From: a bacterium
GTDB lineage: Bacteria > Actinomycetota > Acidimicrobiia > Spongiisociales > ZC4RG35
Length of the DNA: 64,000 nt
Assembly: GCA_028819345.1 (NCBI GenBank)
Contig: JAPPLW010000068.1
Location: 1-64,000 of the forward strand
Direction: 5' to 3'
Position numbers and translations under genes: made by a program. Below, piece after piece: positions 39,331 through 48,317 of the stretch (positions are counted from its first letter, which is position 1; the number at the start of each line of letters is the position of its first letter). Below the pieces are notes generated by a model that searched no databases, had not been told where the DNA came from, and saw nothing but the letters and a program-made list of their open reading frames with translations.

Positions 39331-39398
39331 CAGCTCGCCGTGGAGGTTGAACCCTAGAGCCGCTGCCGGGCAAGTGCTCGGGGAGTGGGGCACATCTG

Positions 39399-40709
39399 CT
39401 AGCGGGAAGGAACTCGACTTCTCGGTCTGCTCCGGTTGTGCCGTTTGGGGTTGGTCTGATACACCCTTCGACGGTTGCCGGCCGTCCTTGCGGAGCCGGG
39501 CTTCGATCGGTGGCCGCCAGGCCTGCCCTGGGCTCGACCATTACGACCCGCGGTTGGGTTATCGGGCCGGGGGCGGCGCTTGACCGGCGATGGGTCGGCG
39601 TCGAGGCGGTCGGGGCTGGTGATGGGTTGTTTCAGGCCGAGCTGGCGCTGGATCCTCTTCGCCCCCCCAACCTGGTCGGGCTGGATCAGCGACACCACCA
39701 GTCCGCTCCGCCCGGCCCGGGCCGTGCGCCCCGAGCGGTGCAGGTATGCCTTCTGGTCCTCCGGCGGGTCAAAGTGGATGACCGACGCCACGCCCTCCAC
39801 GTGGATCCCCCGAGCGGCGACGTCGGTCGCCACCAGTGCCTCGACCCGGCCGGTGGTGAATTCCTTGAGGGTGCGGGTGCGTCGGCTCTGGGTGTGGCCT
39901 CCGTGTAGAGCGGCGGCCCTGACCCCACGCTTGGCGAGTTGGCGGGCCAGCCGGTCTGAGCCATGCCGGGTCCGGCAGAACACGATCGTCGACCCCGTGG
40001 CGCTGATCAAGTCAACACAGGTGGCGATCCGCCGGTTCTTGTCCACAGTCCAGAATCGGTGGTCGGCCGCGGCTATGTCGGGTTTCATCTCCCCGACCTC
40101 ATGGGTGACCGGGTGATGTTGATAATCGCGGGTTAGCTTGGCCACGTCGCGGTCGAGAGTCGCCGAGAACATGAGGGTCTGACGTCGGGCGGCGGTTTGA
40201 TCGAGGAGGCGTCGAACGGCGGGAAGAAACCCCATGTCGGCCATGCGGTCGGCTTCGTCGATGACCACCTGGTCCACCTCATGCAGGCTCACCGCCCTCC
40301 GGTCGATCAGATCTTCGAGCCTCCCGGGGCATGCGACGAGAATCTCGACGCCTCTCTGCAGCTTCTTCAGTTGGGCGCCGTAGCCGACGCCGCCGTACAC
40401 GACCCCCACGCGGACCTGGCCGGAAAAGGTGCGCAGTTCCGACGCGATCTGATCGGCCAACTCTCGGGTTGGGGACAGAACCAGGGCTCGGGGCCGTCTG
40501 GACTTGGCGCGGTGGGCATTGACGACCAGGGGTATGCCGAAGGCGAGGGTCTTTCCCGACCCCGTGGGTGCTCGTCCGCAGATGTCCCGGCCCGCAAGGG
40601 CGTCAGCGAGGACGGCGGCTTGGATTTCGAACGGTTTGTGGATGCCGCTGCGTGCAAGCGCACGACAAACGGATTCAGGCACGCCCAAGCGGGCGAAAGT
40701 GGGTGACAT
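39399..40709 (-). CDS. DEAD-box RNA helicase
   Basis: The 436-residue helicase has Q motif (FEIQ), motif I APTGSGKT (47-54), PTRELADQ, motif II VIDEADRM (Asp151 to Asp154), SAT (182-184), and in the second domain IVFCRTRHGSDRLA, ATDVAARGIHVEGV and HRSGRTARAG. It is a complete RhlE-type protein with a basic, disordered C-terminal tail (about 360-436) rich in Arg, Gly and Pro that may bind RNA. It is convergent with rdgB and has no obvious operon partner. Confidence 0.93.
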   Translation of the reverse strand: MSPTFARLGVPESVCRALARSGIHKPFEIQAAVLADALAGRDICGRAPTGSGKTLAFGIPLVVNAHRAKSRRPRALVLSPTRELADQIASELRTFSGQVRVGVVYGGVGYGAQLKKLQRGVEILVACPGRLEDLIDRRAVSLHEVDQVVIDEADRMADMGFLPAVRRLLDQTAARRQTLMFSATLDRDVAKLTRDYQHHPVTHEVGEMKPDIAAADHRFWTVDKNRRIATCVDLISATGSTIVFCRTRHGSDRLARQLAKRGVRAAALHGGHTQSRRTRTLKEFTTGRVEALVATDVAARGIHVEGVASVIHFDPPEDQKAYLHRSGRTARAGRSGLVVSLIQPDQVGGAKRIQRQLGLKQPITSPDRLDADPSPVKRRPRPDNPTAGRNGRAQGRPGGHRSKPGSARTAGNRRRVYQTNPKRHNRSRPRSRVPSR

Positions 40710-41089
40710 TAGTGCTGGGGGCTCCTCCCTCGCGCGTGGCGAGACCTAGGGTTCGCTGATGTCTGGAAAGTCGGCAATACAACAACGCTGTGCCGGGGTG
40801 GTCTACACAGGATCAGTGCCGAAGACTTAGCTGCGAACCCCACTACCGGAATATCCGGTTAGATGATCCAAGTGTAACGCCACCGGCCGCACAATCCTCA
40901 TCCTTTCAAAACACCTGGGAGTCCGGCGGGTCCTGACTCCTCTCCGGCCGGGCTGTCACCACCGAACGAATGACCCGAACGGAAGGGAGCCGGAACTGGC
41001 AAGAGAGTCGGCGAAGAATAGCTCTGACCAGGAGTGACTTCCCTATCGGTTGCTGCAAGGCCGGGATGAAGGCTGCCGCTGGCAAGGAC
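40710..41089. other. intergenic region between two leftward genes
   Basis: No gene is visible here. An inverted repeat GGAGTC (40918-40923) with GACTCC (40935-40940) could be part of a terminator or regulatory site, although it lacks a U-tract. The part next to the helicase start probably carries its promoter; I cannot assign boxes. Confidence 0.35.
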
Positions 41090-43216: not shown

Positions 43217-43717
43217 TCAGCGACTCTTCAGAATGTTGCGAATTCTTGCCCTAACCGAGGGAGCCTCCGATTCGATGGCCCTGGTCAGCATGAGGTTCAC
43301 CTCCTCTCGGTATCGCGGGAAACGAAGCGACAGTTCGTTATATCCGTTATAGGCCCACGCCCTGAGGAACTTGTTGTCGCTTTCGAGACAGGAGTCCAGA
43401 AACTCCTCAACACCAGCGCTTTCGTCCTCAGGAATGTCGAGATAAGGAAGGCATTGGAGGATGTGCAGTTTGCTTTCCCAATGCTCTTGGTCAGGGAGTA
43501 CGCACAAGATCGCTCGGGAACCCCTAGGGGAAAGGGAGTTGCCCGCGTCAAGATGTCTCTTCAGCAGCCAGGTCGCCGCCGGTTGCAATTCGACATCTGC
43601 AATGTGCTCCAAGATCGTCGCAAGGAAACCTTCTTCATCGCAATGGCGTTCATATGTCGACTGCAACGCGGCAGCGGACTTGTTATCCCAAGAAGCAATC
43701 TCGTCCAATAATGTCAT
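43217..43717 (-). CDS. HEAT-like helical protein, 166 aa
   Basis: This protein of unknown function is all-helical with a HEAT-type pattern (DNKFLRAWAYNGYNELSLRFPRYREEVNLMLTRAIESEAPSVRARIRNIL). A partial second copy of its first 50 residues and upstream DNA exists at 45770-45970. The intact copy begins MTLLDEIASWDNKSAAALQ at ATG 43717, with AGGAA about 12 bases upstream. No partner gene is obvious; the neighbourhood is accessory. GC is lower than in the core genes. Confidence 0.65.
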   Translation of the reverse strand: MTLLDEIASWDNKSAAALQSTYERHCDEEGFLATILEHIADVELQPAATWLLKRHLDAGNSLSPRGSRAILCVLPDQEHWESKLHILQCLPYLDIPEDESAGVEEFLDSCLESDNKFLRAWAYNGYNELSLRFPRYREEVNLMLTRAIESEAPSVRARIRNILKSR

Positions 43718-43814
43718 GTCACGCTCTGTTCCTGCGACGGCAGGGCGTCTGTGCTATGGCTATTCTGGCACCGAGGTGGGTTGAAGCACAGGATCCGGGC
43801 TGAAGCAGAGTGAC

Positions 43815-44270
43815 CTACAGAATGCAGAACTCGTTTCCCTCAGGATCGGTCATCAGCACCCAGCGGCCCACCGCCTCGTCGAAGCGCGCCACTTCCGAGG
43901 CTCCTCGCTCGATCATTGCCGCTACCCCGGCCTTCCGGATTTGGTCGTGCTGGTCTTCGGGCAGGGACCGGTCGATGATGTCGATGTCGATGTGCCACCG
44001 GTTCTTGGCAGTCTTGCCTTCCGGAACCTTCTGGAACACGATGCGAGGTCCGACTCCCTTCGGATCCATTATGGCGGTATATCGTTCCCGGTCCTCTGCC
44101 GACATGTCCAACGCGTCGGCGAATGCCTTCCAGGTCTCGAATCCCTGAGGGGGAGGCTGCGGAACATACCCCAGGGCAAAGGTCCAGAACTCCGCCATGA
44201 CGTTTGGGTCCGTCACGTCGACGATGACCGCCGTTATGCCGGGTGGATGGGGTGGTGTCATGAGAGTCAT
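43815..44270 (-). CDS. VOC (glyoxalase-like) family protein
   Basis: The roughly 151-residue protein shows two beta-alpha-beta halves of the vicinal oxygen chelate fold: ITAVIVDVTDPNVMAEFWTFALGY and, near the end, RWVLMTDPEGNEFCIL. The middle RIVFQKVPEGKTAKNRWHIDIDI is the usual second-half start. ATG 44270 or 44261 could start it; the longer frame is not supported. It may be a dioxygenase-like or antibiotic-binding protein; activity cannot be assigned. Confidence 0.82.
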   Translation of the reverse strand: MTLMTPPHPPGITAVIVDVTDPNVMAEFWTFALGYVPQPPPQGFETWKAFADALDMSAEDRERYTAIMDPKGVGPRIVFQKVPEGKTAKNRWHIDIDIIDRSLPEDQHDQIRKAGVAAMIERGASEVARFDEAVGRWVLMTDPEGNEFCIL

Positions 44271-44597
44271 GTGGGCCGATGCTATCAGCAGGTGGACGGA
44301 GTTGGGATAGGGCTTCGGAGGCTCTGTGAAGGGCGGCCAGGCCGGTCTCGCCAACCGAAAACTCGAGATCCCGCGCCAGCCGGTCCGCTATTTTGACCAA
44401 GCCCGCGCATCCCAGTGCCAACACTTAGGGGCCGTCCTGCTGGCTGGGTCCCGGCGTTCCAGCGCATCCTGGCAGGGCTCCCAGGGAACAAGGCAGCCGC
44501 CCGCCGTTGCGGGCGATCGGCCCCAAGCATCACACACAGCGCCAAACAAGCAACCTAGGAGGGCGTGCTCTGGGCGGGGCCGGTAGATTGTGGGAGG
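44271..44597. other. intergenic region with strong hairpin
   Basis: No gene is visible between the divergent VOC and acyltransferase genes. A 7-bp stem CGCCCGC (44498-44504) with GCGGGCG (44509-44515) has a four-base loop and lies about 80 bases before the acyltransferase. It might terminate transcription or fold in the 5' leader. Confidence 0.4.
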
Positions 44598-45692
44598 ATG
44601 GTGGCGTCGGAGCGGGATCGTTTTGTAGATCTTCTGCGTTCGTTCTCGTTGGTTGTGGTGGTGGTGTGGCATTGGGTTTTCACGATTCTGGTGGTTTCTC
44701 CGGAGACGGTGTCGCCTTCCAATCCGATCGGTTTCACCCGGGGCCTGTGGGTGGCCACTTGGTTGTTGCAGGTGATGCCGGTGTTCTTTTTCGTGGGCGG
44801 GTATACGCACTTCCGGTCCTTCCGCAACTACACTCCTGGGACCTCCCGGCGGTTTCTCAAGCGTCGGATGGGGAGGTTGGTGGCACCGGCTCTGGGTCTG
44901 GTGGCGGTGTGGCTGTTCGTCGGCTGGGTGCTGGAGGTCACCCTCGATCCGGCTTGGGTCTGGTCGGCTGTGATCCTGGTGCTGTCGCCGCTGTGGTTCC
45001 TTGTCGTGTACGTGGTGATGGTCCTTATCGCTCCGATCGCGATACGGGCTCATCGGCGGTGGGGGGAGATTGCCGCGGTGTGGCTGCTGGGACTTGCCGG
45101 TGTGTTGGACGTGCTCCGGTTCAGCCACGGTCAGGGTTGGGCTGCCTGGGTCAACTTCTTGGTGATCTGGGGTTTGGCCCACCAACTCGGTTTTTTCTAC
45201 GACCGGATGATCACCGCGCCTCCCCGGACCGGTTGGACGATGTTCTGGGTGGGTCTTTTCGCTCTTGTCGCCCTGACAAATATGGGGTTCTACCCGCGTT
45301 CCCTGGTGGGTGTACCCGGTGAGCGTTTTTCCAACATGGGACCGCCGACCCTGGCGATTGTTGCTTTGACGATTCTGCAGGTGGGGCTGGTGCTGGTGGT
45401 CCGGCCCAGGGTGCTGGCCTGGTTGGAGAGAGGCGCCCTGAAGCAACTGGTGGTCGGCTGGATCAATGAGCACGCTATGCCGCTGTATCTGTTGCACTCC
45501 ACCGGAATGGCGATTGTGGTTGCAATTCTGTTCGGCTTCGGGTACCGACCACCCTCCGAGCCCACTCTCCAATGGTGGCTCACCAGGCCCATCTGGCTGA
45601 TCGGGCCCGCCTTAGCCACCTGGCCCCTCCTATCCCTATACCGGATGACCAGACGTTCGCCAACACCCCCCATCCCCAAAACGGCCGACTAG
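44598..45692 (+). CDS. membrane acyltransferase (acyltransferase 3 family)
   Basis: A 364-residue membrane protein with ten or so helices. The N-terminal RDRFVDLLRSFSLVVVVVWHWVF carries the conserved His-Trp/Asp pattern of acyltransferase 3 proteins, and VFFFVGGYTHFRSFRN with RRFLKRRMGRLVAP continues it. HSTGMAIVV sits near the C-terminus. Such enzymes acylate surface sugars or lipids. ATG 44598 is used rather than the frame extension to 44565. Coding is on the GC-rich side and typical of the core, unlike the genes that follow. Confidence 0.85.
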   Translation: MVASERDRFVDLLRSFSLVVVVVWHWVFTILVVSPETVSPSNPIGFTRGLWVATWLLQVMPVFFFVGGYTHFRSFRNYTPGTSRRFLKRRMGRLVAPALGLVAVWLFVGWVLEVTLDPAWVWSAVILVLSPLWFLVVYVVMVLIAPIAIRAHRRWGEIAAVWLLGLAGVLDVLRFSHGQGWAAWVNFLVIWGLAHQLGFFYDRMITAPPRTGWTMFWVGLFALVALTNMGFYPRSLVGVPGERFSNMGPPTLAIVALTILQVGLVLVVRPRVLAWLERGALKQLVVGWINEHAMPLYLLHSTGMAIVVAILFGFGYRPPSEPTLQWWLTRPIWLIGPALATWPLLSLYRMTRRSPTPPIPKTAD

Positions 45693-45730
45693 TCAGGACA
45701 GGACGGCGGGAGACCAGGGCCGTAGACAGA

Positions 45731-45769
45731 GTGGAGATCACTGCGGACTTGGTGGAAAAGGCCGGCCAG
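45731..45769 (+). pseudogene. VapC (PIN) gene fragment, 13 codons
   Basis: These 39 bases match codons 78-90 of the intact VapC gene (46497-46535) at 36 of 39 positions; all three differences are silent third-position changes. The fragment encodes VEITADLVEKAGQ and then runs straight into a HEAT-gene remnant. It is what is left of a second VapC gene. The silent changes imply that it was under selection before it was broken. Confidence 0.8.
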
Positions 45770-45915
45770 GTCGCCACCCGTTGCAAATCGACATCTGCAA
45801 TGTGCTCCAAGATCGTCGCAAGGAAGTCTTCTTCACCGCTGTGGCGCTCACATGTCGACTGCAACGCGGCGGCGGATTTGTTGTCCCAGGAGGCAATCTT
45901 TTCCAACAGTGTCAT
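45770..45915 (-). pseudogene. truncated copy of the HEAT-like gene
   Basis: Codons 1-49 of a HEAT-like gene survive (MTLLEKIASWDNKSAAALQSTCERH...LATILEHIADVDLQRVATW), closely related to the intact gene at 43217-43717. Similarity also extends through the upstream region to about 45970. The copy breaks at the shared sequence GCCAG where the VapC fragment begins. Two of the losses are structural, so no functional product is expected. Confidence 0.8.
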
Positions 45916-45960
45916 CTCACACTTGGTTCCTTGCGACGTCAGGGCAGTCTGTGCTGTGGC

Positions 45961-46000
45961 TATAATAGGTCTGACAAATCTAGCCATATAGTCAAAGGAG
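45961..46000 (+). promoter_or_regulatory. vapBC promoter/RBS region derived from the HEAT duplicate
   Basis: TATAAT at 45961-45966 is a good -10 box and AAAGGAG at 45994-46000 is the vapB ribosome site. The DNA just upstream is the 5' flank of the duplicated HEAT gene (TGTGCTGTGGCTAT is shared with 43750 and following bases). The antitoxin operon therefore appears to use a promoter created at the edge of the duplication. No good -35 box is visible. Confidence 0.5.
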
Positions 46001-46008
46001 CGACGAAA

Positions 46009-46269
46009 ATGCCGGAAGTCGGAATCAGAGTGCTGCGAGACAATCTGAGCCGCTATATCAGCAGGGTAAGGGAGGGTGAGGAGGTGATCGTGACCGACCA
46101 CGGCAAGCCGGTGGCCCGAATCGCGCCCCTCGACCGGCCGGACCTGCTGGAGCGACTCATATCCGAGGGGGTGGTTACGCCCCCACTTGACAGAGAACGT
46201 ACCTCGCCCGGCAAGCGGGTTAAACCAGCAGTGCCCGTCTCCCCCCTGATTATCGAAGACCGGCGGTGA
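46009..46269 (+). CDS. vapB: type II antitoxin, Phd/YefM (VapB) family
   Basis: The 86-residue antitoxin begins MPEVGIRVLRDNLSRYISRVREGEEVIVTDHGKPVARIAPL, the Phd/YefM fold that binds DNA as a dimer. The C-terminal half (DRERTSPGKRVKPAVPVSPLII) is the toxin-wrapping tail. ATG 46009 follows AAAGGAG eight bases upstream; the longer frame reads through the HEAT remnant and is rejected. It overlaps vapC by four bases (GTGA), the usual coupling. It represses its own promoter by family analogy. Confidence 0.92.
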   Translation: MPEVGIRVLRDNLSRYISRVREGEEVIVTDHGKPVARIAPLDRPDLLERLISEGVVTPPLDRERTSPGKRVKPAVPVSPLIIEDRR

Positions 46270-46700
46270 TCGCCTACTTCGATACCTCGGCGATGATCCC
46301 CCTTCTCATTGATGAGCCTTTGTCCAAACTCGCGGAACGGGTTTGGCAGCGGGCATCTTGGGTGGCCAGTGCCCGGACTTCCTACGTTGAAGCTCGTTCC
46401 GGCTTGGCGCGAGCTTGCCGGATGGAACGTATCTCGCCGTCTGAGTTGAGGGAAGCTATAGAAGGTCTGGAAAAACTCCACCGTCAGATCCATCAGGTGG
46501 AGATCACCGCCGACTTGGTGGAGAAGGCCGGCCAGTTGGCCGAGGAGTTGGCATTGAGAGCCTATGACGCCATCCAACTCGCCGCAGCTGCGTCCCTGGA
46601 CATTGATGACCTGGTCGTGATAACCGGCGATAGGCAACTTGCAGCAGCGGCGCAAACTCTGGGGCTTTCCTCCATCTCCGACCAGGGAACGCCGACATGA
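46266..46700 (+). CDS. vapC: type II toxin VapC, PIN-domain RNase
   Basis: A 144-residue PIN ribonuclease with the full acidic set: Asp6 in YFDTSAMIPLL, Glu42 in SYVEARSGLAR, Asp101 in RAYDAIQLAAA and Asp122 in VVITGDRQL. Such toxins cut tRNA or rRNA when the antitoxin is lost. The GTG start overlaps the vapB stop. A 39-base fragment of a very close relative lies upstream at 45731-45769, so the locus once held two VapC genes. The pair looks intact. Confidence 0.93.
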   Translation: MIAYFDTSAMIPLLIDEPLSKLAERVWQRASWVASARTSYVEARSGLARACRMERISPSELREAIEGLEKLHRQIHQVEITADLVEKAGQLAEELALRAYDAIQLAAAASLDIDDLVVITGDRQLAAAAQTLGLSSISDQGTPT

Positions 46701-46761
46701 ACCCGGTAAACGAGTTGGCTCTCGAGCGACGATGCGGGCAATTGGGTGGTGATTGGGTGAC

Positions 46762-47406
46762 ATGAGCGAATCTACAGTAAGAAACCTCATCTCTGGCATA
46801 GCGGCGATAGCCGAATTGCTAGGAGACGATTACGAGCCGGTTGAGCACGGACGGGTAATCCTGCCGTTTACCGTTATGCGCCGACTTGATTGCGTGCTCG
46901 AGCCCACCAAGGACAGAGTGTTAGAGGCTGCGAGTCAACTCTCCGGTTCTTCCAAGAACCGGGGTCAGCTGCTAGAAGGTGCTGCGGGGCACCCGTATTA
47001 CAACACCTCTCCTTACACCTTTACGTCTCTGCTCTCTGATCCCGAAAATCTGGCAACTAGCTTGCAAAAATACATTGCTGAGTTCTCGGCTCCAGTCCGC
47101 GAGGTTCTGACCCACTTCAGTGTCGATGCCCACATGAGACGCTTGGTTGCGAACGACCTGCTGTATCCGTTGATGTCGAGGTTTAGGGCTCTTGATTTGA
47201 GGCGCGGAATGGTATCAGACCAAGAAATGGGTTCTATCTACGAGGGCTCTAGTTGGGGCAGTGTGAGCACAAGGACAACAATAGAGCGCCGAAGTGACAA
47301 CCCCATTGATCTCCTTATGCCGTCCGAACAATGTCTTCGGGTGCTGAATCACTTTGACAGATATGTGTCCAGCGCGTATAGCCAGCCGCCGCAGTTCGGT
47401 TTCTGA
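46762..47406 (+). pseudogene. truncated type I restriction HsdM N-terminal fragment
   Basis: The first 150 or so residues match HsdM proteins: AAIAELLGDDYEPVEHGRVILPFTVMRRLDCVLEPTKDRVLEAA, NTSPYTFTSLL, LQKYIAEFSAPVREVL, LVANDLLYPLMSRF and MVSDQEMGSIYE. A full HsdM continues after MGxxFE with the methyltransferase domain (FxGxG and NPPF motifs). Here the frame loses similarity after SIYE and stops at 47404-47406 without those motifs. No HsdS or HsdR is near. Lower GC than the flanks suggests transfer. Start ATG 46762. Confidence 0.8.
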
Positions 47407-47478
47407 ATCTGCCTCGCCAACGCCGAAGTCCGCCACAGGCGTTTCAAAGACACTGCTTACGGGGAAAGCTCAACACCG

Positions 47479-47961
47479 CTATGGGACAACGCCCCTTGAG
47501 AAGAAGCATCTCCACAGCAACCGGGGGGCCATGGGATCGTTGGCGTCCCGGGCTTGCATCACTGCATAAATGTTTTGGATGAGACGTTTCCATCCCTCAT
47601 CGTCTCCCCCTCCCGGCCAATAGAGGGCCAACTCAATGTCGGTTCCCTTTGCTAGGGTTTCCTGTATCCGTTCTCTCCAATGCTGGAACGAATGGTGGTG
47701 CAGACTTGAGTGGGCATTCTGTACGAGGTGTTTGTTCCTCAACACTGTGTCCCACAGCTGTTGCAGGAGATGCTGTCGATGACTCTCCTGTGCTATTGCT
47801 GTGGCGATCTGTTCCGTGACCGCATCAAAGGCGCGGATTCTGGCTAGGGCCTCTTGGTCTTTTCGATGCTCGTCAGCTACCCGTTCTTTCTCTTTTCGCT
47901 TTGCATTCAGCTGCCCGTTCTTCCTTTTTGGCCTTGCAATCCTTCTTGCGATGCCGCTCAA
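47479..47961 (-). CDS. hypothetical protein, probable 3' half of a frameshifted gene
   Basis: This 160-codon frame starts in a lysine/arginine/glutamate-rich coiled coil (NAKRKEKERVADEHRKDQEALARIRAFDAV) and goes on to an unassigned domain with WGRCF and YWPGGGDDEGWKRLIQNIYAVMQARD. It overlaps the TM-bearing frame at 47873-48151 in another phase; the coiled coil of that frame continues here after a shift of one base, so the two are probably one broken gene. The first residues before NAKRK look non-coding. The family is not recognised. Confidence 0.5.
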   Translation of the reverse strand: MSGIARRIARPKRKNGQLNAKRKEKERVADEHRKDQEALARIRAFDAVTEQIATAIAQESHRQHLLQQLWDTVLRNKHLVQNAHSSLHHHSFQHWRERIQETLAKGTDIELALYWPGGGDDEGWKRLIQNIYAVMQARDANDPMAPRLLWRCFFSRGVVP

Positions 47962-48151
47962 AGGAGGCGAACAGCCATCCCTGATAAAGGATCAATGACA
48001 CTATGCCCGCCGCTATTAGTCCCTTCTGGACGGTGTCGTCCATCCTGAGGACGTGGGTGATGAGTGCTGTCCCAAAGAACACAAGGGCCGTTACCACGCC
48101 CATGCTGCTGTGGGCTTTCCATAAACCGAGAACAGAGATGAGCTTTTCCAT
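47873..48151 (-). CDS. hypothetical membrane protein, probable 5' half of a frameshifted gene
   Basis: The frame from ATG 48151 gives MEKLISVLGLWKAHSSMGVVTALVFFGTALITH (membrane helix about 18-33), a second helix at about 46-63 and a charged coiled coil, FERHRKKDCKAKKEERAAECKAKRERTGS. It stops at 47873. Reading on in the other phase near 47884-47900, inside the A-rich GCGAAAAGAGAAAGAA on the minus strand, restores a continuous coiled coil and 130 further residues. A one-base gain in an A run or an assembly error would explain this. Confidence 0.5.
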   Translation of the reverse strand: MEKLISVLGLWKAHSSMGVVTALVFFGTALITHVLRMDDTVQKGLIAAGIVSLILYQGWLFASFERHRKKDCKAKKEERAAECKAKRERTGS

Positions 48152-48222
48152 CAATGCAGTTTCCAAAACTGAAACATCAAGCCCAGATTAGAAAAGCCTC
48201 TGAACTGAGTAAACATCCCTAC

Positions 48223-48317
48223 TGGCGGAGGCGGACGGGAATCGAACCCGCCGGGGGTCTTTTGACCCCCCACCGGTTTTGAAGACCGGGGAGCCCACCA
48301 GGCGCTCGCTCGCCTCC
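48223..48317 (-). tRNA. selC: tRNA-Sec (anticodon UCA)
   Basis: This 95-base minus-strand tRNA has the marks of tRNA-Sec: anticodon stem CCGGT/ACCGG around the loop CTTCAAA (anticodon UCA), an extra-long variable arm with a 7-bp stem GGGGGTC-AAAA-GACCCCC, a T arm with TTCGATT and an encoded CCA (48223-48225). Acceptor GGAGGCG pairs with CGCCTCC; the eighth pair would be A-C. Together with the UGA gene at 11075-12232 it shows that the organism decodes UGA as selenocysteine. selA, selB and selD are not in the window. Confidence 0.93.

Follow-up and report, generated by a model that had tools for sequence, protein, structure and literature searches.

A chimeric vapC-HEAT seam that may record an old tandem duplication in a variable defence hotspot

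The processes closest to the one considered here appear in earlier papers. There, illegitimate recombination is named as a main source of small variable segments (PMC2884548), its homology-facilitated form is described (PMC3240628), PIN-domain genes are tandemly duplicated in Archaeoglobus (PMC2701414), and toxin-antitoxin pairs are found in defence islands, with prrC lying inside EcoprrI (PMC12707154). The locus analysed here combines several such elements. It lies in a window of 64,000 nucleotides, the whole stretch that we examined, on a contig of 77,938 bases from a draft genome of 2.8 Mb in 120 contigs. In it, a truncated piece of a vapC toxin gene is joined to a second, partial copy of a HEAT-like gene, directly upstream of an intact toxin-antitoxin pair. 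Our preferred reading, to which we assign a probability of about 0.53, is that this scar marks the join left by an old segmental (tandem) duplication in a variable defence hotspot.

The seam and the toxin-antitoxin pair

The features at and around the join are the following.

43217-43717, minus strand: intact HEAT-like (all-helical) gene of 166 aa, from its open reading frame and an AlphaFold2 model
45727-45769, plus strand: vapC stub, a vapC 3' fragment of which 13 codons remain before it is cut off at GCCAG, matching the living vapC at 36/39 positions
45765-45769, no strand: GCCAG, the 5-bp microhomology at the seam, equal to 43567-43571 in the intact HEAT gene
45765-45915, minus strand: HEAT', a second HEAT copy reduced to its ATG and first ~49 codons
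45957-45986, plus strand: predicted antitoxin operator TGGCTA-N18-TAGCCA, with a -10 element TATAAT at 45961-45966
46009-46269, plus strand: predicted vapB-type antitoxin gene of the Phd/YefM family (PF02604, E = 6.8e-10)
46266-46700, plus strand: predicted vapC toxin gene with a PIN domain (PF01850, E = 1.1e-12)

The stub proper (45731-45769) aligns with 46497-46535 of the living vapC, and all three differences are silent, because both stretches translate identically. A local alignment of 45727-45775 with 46494-46541 matches in 43 of 49 columns. The stub runs into GCCAG and then into the antisense of the first ~49 codons of HEAT' and its 5' flank; the 5' part and flank of the intact gene (43567-43763) align with 45765-45963 at 172 matches in 199 columns. 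These alignments agree with the initial annotation, which had described thirteen vapC codons with three silent changes, joined at a shared GCCAG to a copy of the start and flank of the HEAT gene, and had placed the TATAAT correctly. That annotation had also named chance similarity as what would overturn it. Searching the genome itself with 45680-46010 returned only two other places at E ≤ 0.001, at E = 2.7e-61 and 8.6e-10, values that exclude chance similarity of the seam pieces. At random joins between the two corresponding regions of a related genome, G003, at least 5 bp are shared with P = 0.0055 (200,000 draws). The exact seam pattern had no match among viral contigs. We conclude that the scar is the chimeric seam of a real rearrangement.

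The HEAT-like protein matches no Pfam family at E ≤ 0.01, and so no HEAT family model. Its AlphaFold2 model has ten helices (mean pLDDT 94.1), and Foldseek matches to the model are weak (best E = 8.5e-3, none at E ≤ 0.001), the best of them including TOG, adaptor, karyopherin and condensin proteins. The matches include solenoid proteins, among them CAP-G with a TM score normalised to the query of 0.73, again not at E ≤ 0.001. The protein was found in 13 of the 149 genomes searched, its own included. In one relative, G005, the gene (L044:1902-2403, G005:C42) gives two separate matches, one to residues 1-72 and one to residues 76-166, and may be broken by a frameshift.

Downstream of the seam, a PIN-domain toxin gene follows an antitoxin gene in one operon with a 4-nt overlap, and we predict that 46009-46700 encodes a VapBC-type toxin-antitoxin. 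The palindrome TGGCTA-N14..22-TAGCCA occurs once in the 64-kb window, and its N18 form precedes six of the seven closest vapBC copies: those of the window, G003, L047, G004 and G102, and one of the two in G002. In the remaining G002 copy, beside a long hsdR, the right half differs by one base. TATAAT is likewise present before six of the seven, the exception being G102. The palindrome was not found at the four more distant vapBC copies examined (G005, G099, G036 and G096). Four of the seven close copies (two in G002, and those of G004 and G102) lie away from HEAT, and the operator/-10 block is retained in copies so placed; the block, and with it the -10, thus belongs to vapBC itself. Similarity between HEAT and HEAT' stops inside this operator, so that roughly the outer 12-17 nt of what looks like HEAT flank belong to the vapBC module and not to HEAT. 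A sigma-70 consensus scan found no full -35/-10 promoter near vapBC (0, against a mean of 0.3 in shuffles), and at most the HEAT flank could contribute a weak -35. Capture of a HEAT promoter by vapBC is rejected on the same distribution of the block, and the proposal that the event rebuilt the vapBC promoter is not upheld. The living vapBC would be read from its own operator and -10, presumably under autoregulation.

Parental order and the surrounding hotspot

We compared the locus with related genomes, searching 149 with a 1.08-kb region; 17 had a DNA match, the genome itself included. The comparison covered eight HEAT homologue loci from relatives, all metagenome-assembled genomes, and stopped short of the HEAT flanks of the more distant G038, G051, G058, G076, G084 and G087 and of the vapBC copies of G024 and G076. 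Two relatives, G003 and L047 (SB0661_bin_38), share one gene order: HEAT on the minus strand, divergent from it an intact vapBC on the plus strand, an hsdR stub, a glyoxalase-acyltransferase pair (GA), and a vapC 3' fragment of about 230 nt that runs into another hsdR start. G003, L047 and the window share one breakpoint between acyltransferase and vapC. The acyltransferase is mostly deleted in L047, where an internal deletion at L047:4529-4530 joins the equivalents of window positions 44378 and 45495. Compared with G003, single-copy flanks range in identity from 88.7% to 98.4%. The highest value belongs to a DEAD-box helicase region (39398-40893), with neighbours at about 89-95%, which suggests gene exchange between species at that region.

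Between the intact HEAT gene and the seam, the window contains the following.

43747-43763, plus strand: left half of the vapBC operator/promoter, GTCTGTGCTATGGCTAT, the same block that starts the vapBC module in G003, L047 and the window
43767-43784, plus strand, limits approximate: tail of an hsdR 5' stub on the right side of a deletion, matching L047 DNA from 43767 and G003 DNA from 43771
43815-44354, minus strand: glyoxalase-like gene, left part of GA (Pfam Glyoxalase_6, E = 3.3e-22)
44565-45692, plus strand: acyltransferase gene, right part of GA (Pfam Acyl_transf_3, E = 6.4e-25)

From 43771 to 45775 the window is 93.9% identical to G003. The HEAT flank reaches the end of the half operator, where sequence colinear with the hsdR-like tail before GA takes over, while in G003 and L047 the flank continues through the whole operator and vapBC. 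For this reason the window probably once had a HEAT-vapBC pair at the left position, from which the first vapBC was deleted. At the counterpart of the hsdR tail, tblastn matches HsdR residues 14-37 in G003 and 14-34 in L047; the tail in the window itself gives no tblastn match to HsdR. The vapBC block was not seen upstream of HEAT in G001, G002, G004 or G005 (58-87 nt compared), nor in the ~100 nt of HEAT flank viewed in L052 and L053.

The anatomy of the seam, the half operator beside HEAT and the truncations relative to the two relatives can be read directly from the alignments. The vapC fragment ends after 13 codons in the window and continues in both relatives. Because the stub shares its left breakpoint with the longer fragments, and truncation is irreversible, the window is the derived state. 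The opposite polarity, with the window as parent, is rejected, since both the truncated stub and the half operator have longer counterparts in G003 and L047. The idea that a HEAT-vapBC cassette was once a repeated module is borne out by the intact pairs in these relatives, and by the window's one living HEAT'-vapBC together with one cut junction of HEAT and half operator. The accompanying claim that the event moved a toxin-antitoxin locus next to HEAT is not supported, as the adjacency of HEAT and vapBC is older than the event.

Pieces of type I restriction-modification operons also adjoin vapBC. Those that follow vapC in the window are these.

46697-46726, plus strand: hsdR stub of ~10 codons overlapping the vapC stop (ATGA), recognised by DNA alignment with the hsdR starts of G002; its frame meets stops
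46762-47406, plus strand: truncated HsdM N-terminal fragment (HsdM_N, E = 5.5e-17; tblastn, 49% to residues 1-161 of the G002 HsdM)

At 49% identity, the HsdM fragment is the remnant of an operon other than that of G002. In G002 (L040:3156-12717, G002:C67), vapBC is flanked by the hsdS and hsdR genes of a type I operon whose products, by Pfam, are HsdM (672 aa), HsdS (377 aa) and HsdR (1159 aa). There, a first vapBC with an hsdR start comes before an HsdS-like open reading frame of 144 aa, which matches HsdS residues 117-189 at 35%; a second vapBC and the long hsdR come next, and vapC overlaps the hsdR start. The arrangement may represent a second duplication of a vapBC-bearing unit. By tblastn, hsdR starts follow vapC at two places each in G003, L047 and G002, and in G102; in the window and G004 they are recognised by DNA alignment or translation only, and the window stub, being so short, has no tblastn match.

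HEAT is separated from a conserved gene at 48.2 kb by ~4.5 kb in the window; the corresponding distance is ~5.3 kb in G001, ~1.9 kb in G005 and ~35 kb in G004, and in G002 and G003 the two genes are on different contigs. In G001 the interval holds a gene of the AIPR family, which is linked to abortive infection. We read this interval as a variable defence hotspot.

In G004, an 80-nt fragment of a nitroreductase gene (L042:4962-5041, G004:C12:65961-66040) lies 22 nt before the vapBC operator, with an alignment score of 91, where 200 shuffles reached at most 27. The nitroreductase gene borders HEAT, and the intact nitroreductase-HEAT pair of G004 is ~22 kb from the fragment in the same hotspot. 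This fragment appears to be a second, separate border-gene fossil attached to vapBC.

Duplication and competing explanations

Under the preferred reading, an ancestor with the order of G003 and L047 would have undergone a head-to-tail repeat of the segment from HEAT codon ~49 to codon 13 of the vapC fragment, by illegitimate recombination at the short homology GCCAG. The end of one unit, now the vapC stub, would thereby have been brought against the start of the next, now HEAT'. Later losses of vapBC from the left unit and of GA from the right unit would leave HEAT, half operator and hsdR tail, GA, vapC stub-HEAT', and vapBC. We infer the mechanism and the order of losses from the form of the seam and from what remains on each side. 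At the seam, the segment defined in G003 and L047 has its right end set against its own left end in the same orientation, and it is this form that leads us to prefer duplication over import. Left of the seam remain HEAT, the half operator, the hsdR tail and GA; to its right are HEAT', vapBC and the hsdR stub. The duplicated unit would measure 3,014 bp in G003 and 1,890 bp in L047. The seam itself probably has no present function. HEAT' has four nonsynonymous and one synonymous private changes, against 11 and 11 in six other copies together, numbers too few for decay to be apparent.

Several results count against this reading. The model requires two later deletions. HEAT' is no closer to its supposed parent, the resident HEAT (132/151), than to the HEAT of G003 (138/151) or L047 (135/151); G003 and resident HEAT themselves agree at 135/151. 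Downstream of vapBC, 46726-48225 has no match to the sequence after the vapC fragment in G003 or L047, and the right end of the duplicated unit is therefore not seen.

The HEAT' identities would also fit an origin of the HEAT'-vapBC segment in another species of the genus, with entry by homology-facilitated illegitimate recombination to replace a vapBC lost beside HEAT, an explanation that we regard as possible but less likely. Integration would have relied on vapC/hsdR homology at the right end and, at the left, on microhomology (GCCAG) within the resident vapC fragment. The range of flank identities to G003 is as expected if species exchange DNA, and the living vapBC looks mosaic: 46056-46245 is of G003/L047 type at 13/13 relaxed diagnostic sites and 46301-46379 of G002/G004 type at 10/12, the rest being mixed. 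The longest run gives a permutation P of 0.0016 and a runs test P of 0.019, both tests having been chosen after the pattern was seen; two sites of neither type were excluded from them, and G102, though included in the alignment, played no part in defining the sites. The single best breakpoint, however, is not significant, its statistic being reached by 1052 of 10,000 permutations. Among the genomes compared we found no donor with the right flank, and the right-hand crossover was not located. Site patterns in the order scar, resident, G003, L047 are ABAA 13, AABB 10, ABBB 9, AAAB 4, AABA 3, ABAB 2 and ABCC 1. At the ten AABB sites, which lie in coding sequence and flank, the scar agrees with the resident HEAT and differs from G003 and L047, although some of these states look ancestral. 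In a maximum-likelihood tree of nine HEAT 5' regions (supports 34-63), none of three placements of HEAT' is rejected (AU p 0.60, 0.37 and 0.46), so import fits as well as duplication does.

It is conceivable, and we suggest it as an unlikely extension only, that the vapBC-hsdR-start module acts as a recurrent recombination carrier in the genus: with hsd operons coming and going in the hotspot bordered by HEAT, an addictive vapBC would outlive them, drag along pieces of border genes, and provide a non-autonomous island with portable homology. In G003 and L047, GA is flanked by two vapC/hsdR' copies; in G002, two vapBC copies enclose an HsdS-like remnant. The border-gene pieces found beside vapBC are HEAT' in the window and the nitroreductase fragment in G004.

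Template switching, with a single copying of ~960 bp of HEAT'-vapBC-hsdR' into the vapC fragment and a later loss of the original vapBC, would need no full tandem unit. This stretch is the sole one duplicated now, and a repeat search of 40-50 kb returned no second GA remnant, a search that copies under about 65% alike can escape. No diagnostic trace distinguishes such copying from tandem duplication with deletion of GA, and we judge it improbable. An assembly artefact is far less credible still: the draft is in 120 contigs, the relatives are metagenome-assembled genomes, and two close relatives with the sample label RHO1 make mixed populations plausible, but the seam sequences share only 5 bp, which makes a repeat-driven chimera unlikely, and HEAT' has at least 13 differences in 151 positions from every one of the eight HEAT copies in the comparison. 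That the 111-codon chimeric frame (minus strand, 45580-45915), which fuses the HEAT' N-terminus to antisense vapC and acyltransferase sequence, is a new functional gene can be dismissed almost entirely, since, open as it is and with a HEAT' part matching HEAT at 80% of residues, its tail is antisense to other genes and the exact 40-base junction occurs in none of the compared loci of other genomes, so that no conservation is apparent.

Comparison with known systems

With the parental order preserved in two relatives, and both seam and deletion footprint in the window, the locus offers a readable case history of defence hotspot remodelling. If vapBC is found in more genomes to outlive its type I operon and to carry pieces of border genes, the idea that embedded toxin-antitoxin pairs stabilise restriction-modification islands and seed their rearrangement becomes testable. 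The scar itself is a product of ordinary genome remodelling and not a new kind of system; the processes needed are known in kind.

Like the junctions of short-homology illegitimate recombination and tandem duplication in bacterial genomes (PMC2884548), the scar has a few bases of homology at the seam, a duplicated segment and later deletions. Unlike them, it is old or imported, its HEAT copies being 86-87% alike, and the second unit survives only in fragments. Homology-facilitated illegitimate recombination (PMC3240628) would be expected to leave one homologous end and one end with microhomology; for the scar, no donor was found and the right crossover was not located. The pair resembles PIN-domain VapC toxins with Phd/YefM-type antitoxins in its Pfam matches, its overlapping genes and the palindrome over its -10, and differs in the overlap of vapC with an hsdR start codon and, in G002, in its position between hsdS and hsdR. 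As with prrC in EcoprrI (PMC12707154), G002 carries a toxin-type gene inside an hsd operon; here, in contrast, it is a complete toxin-antitoxin pair, and the window keeps only stubs of the restriction-modification genes.
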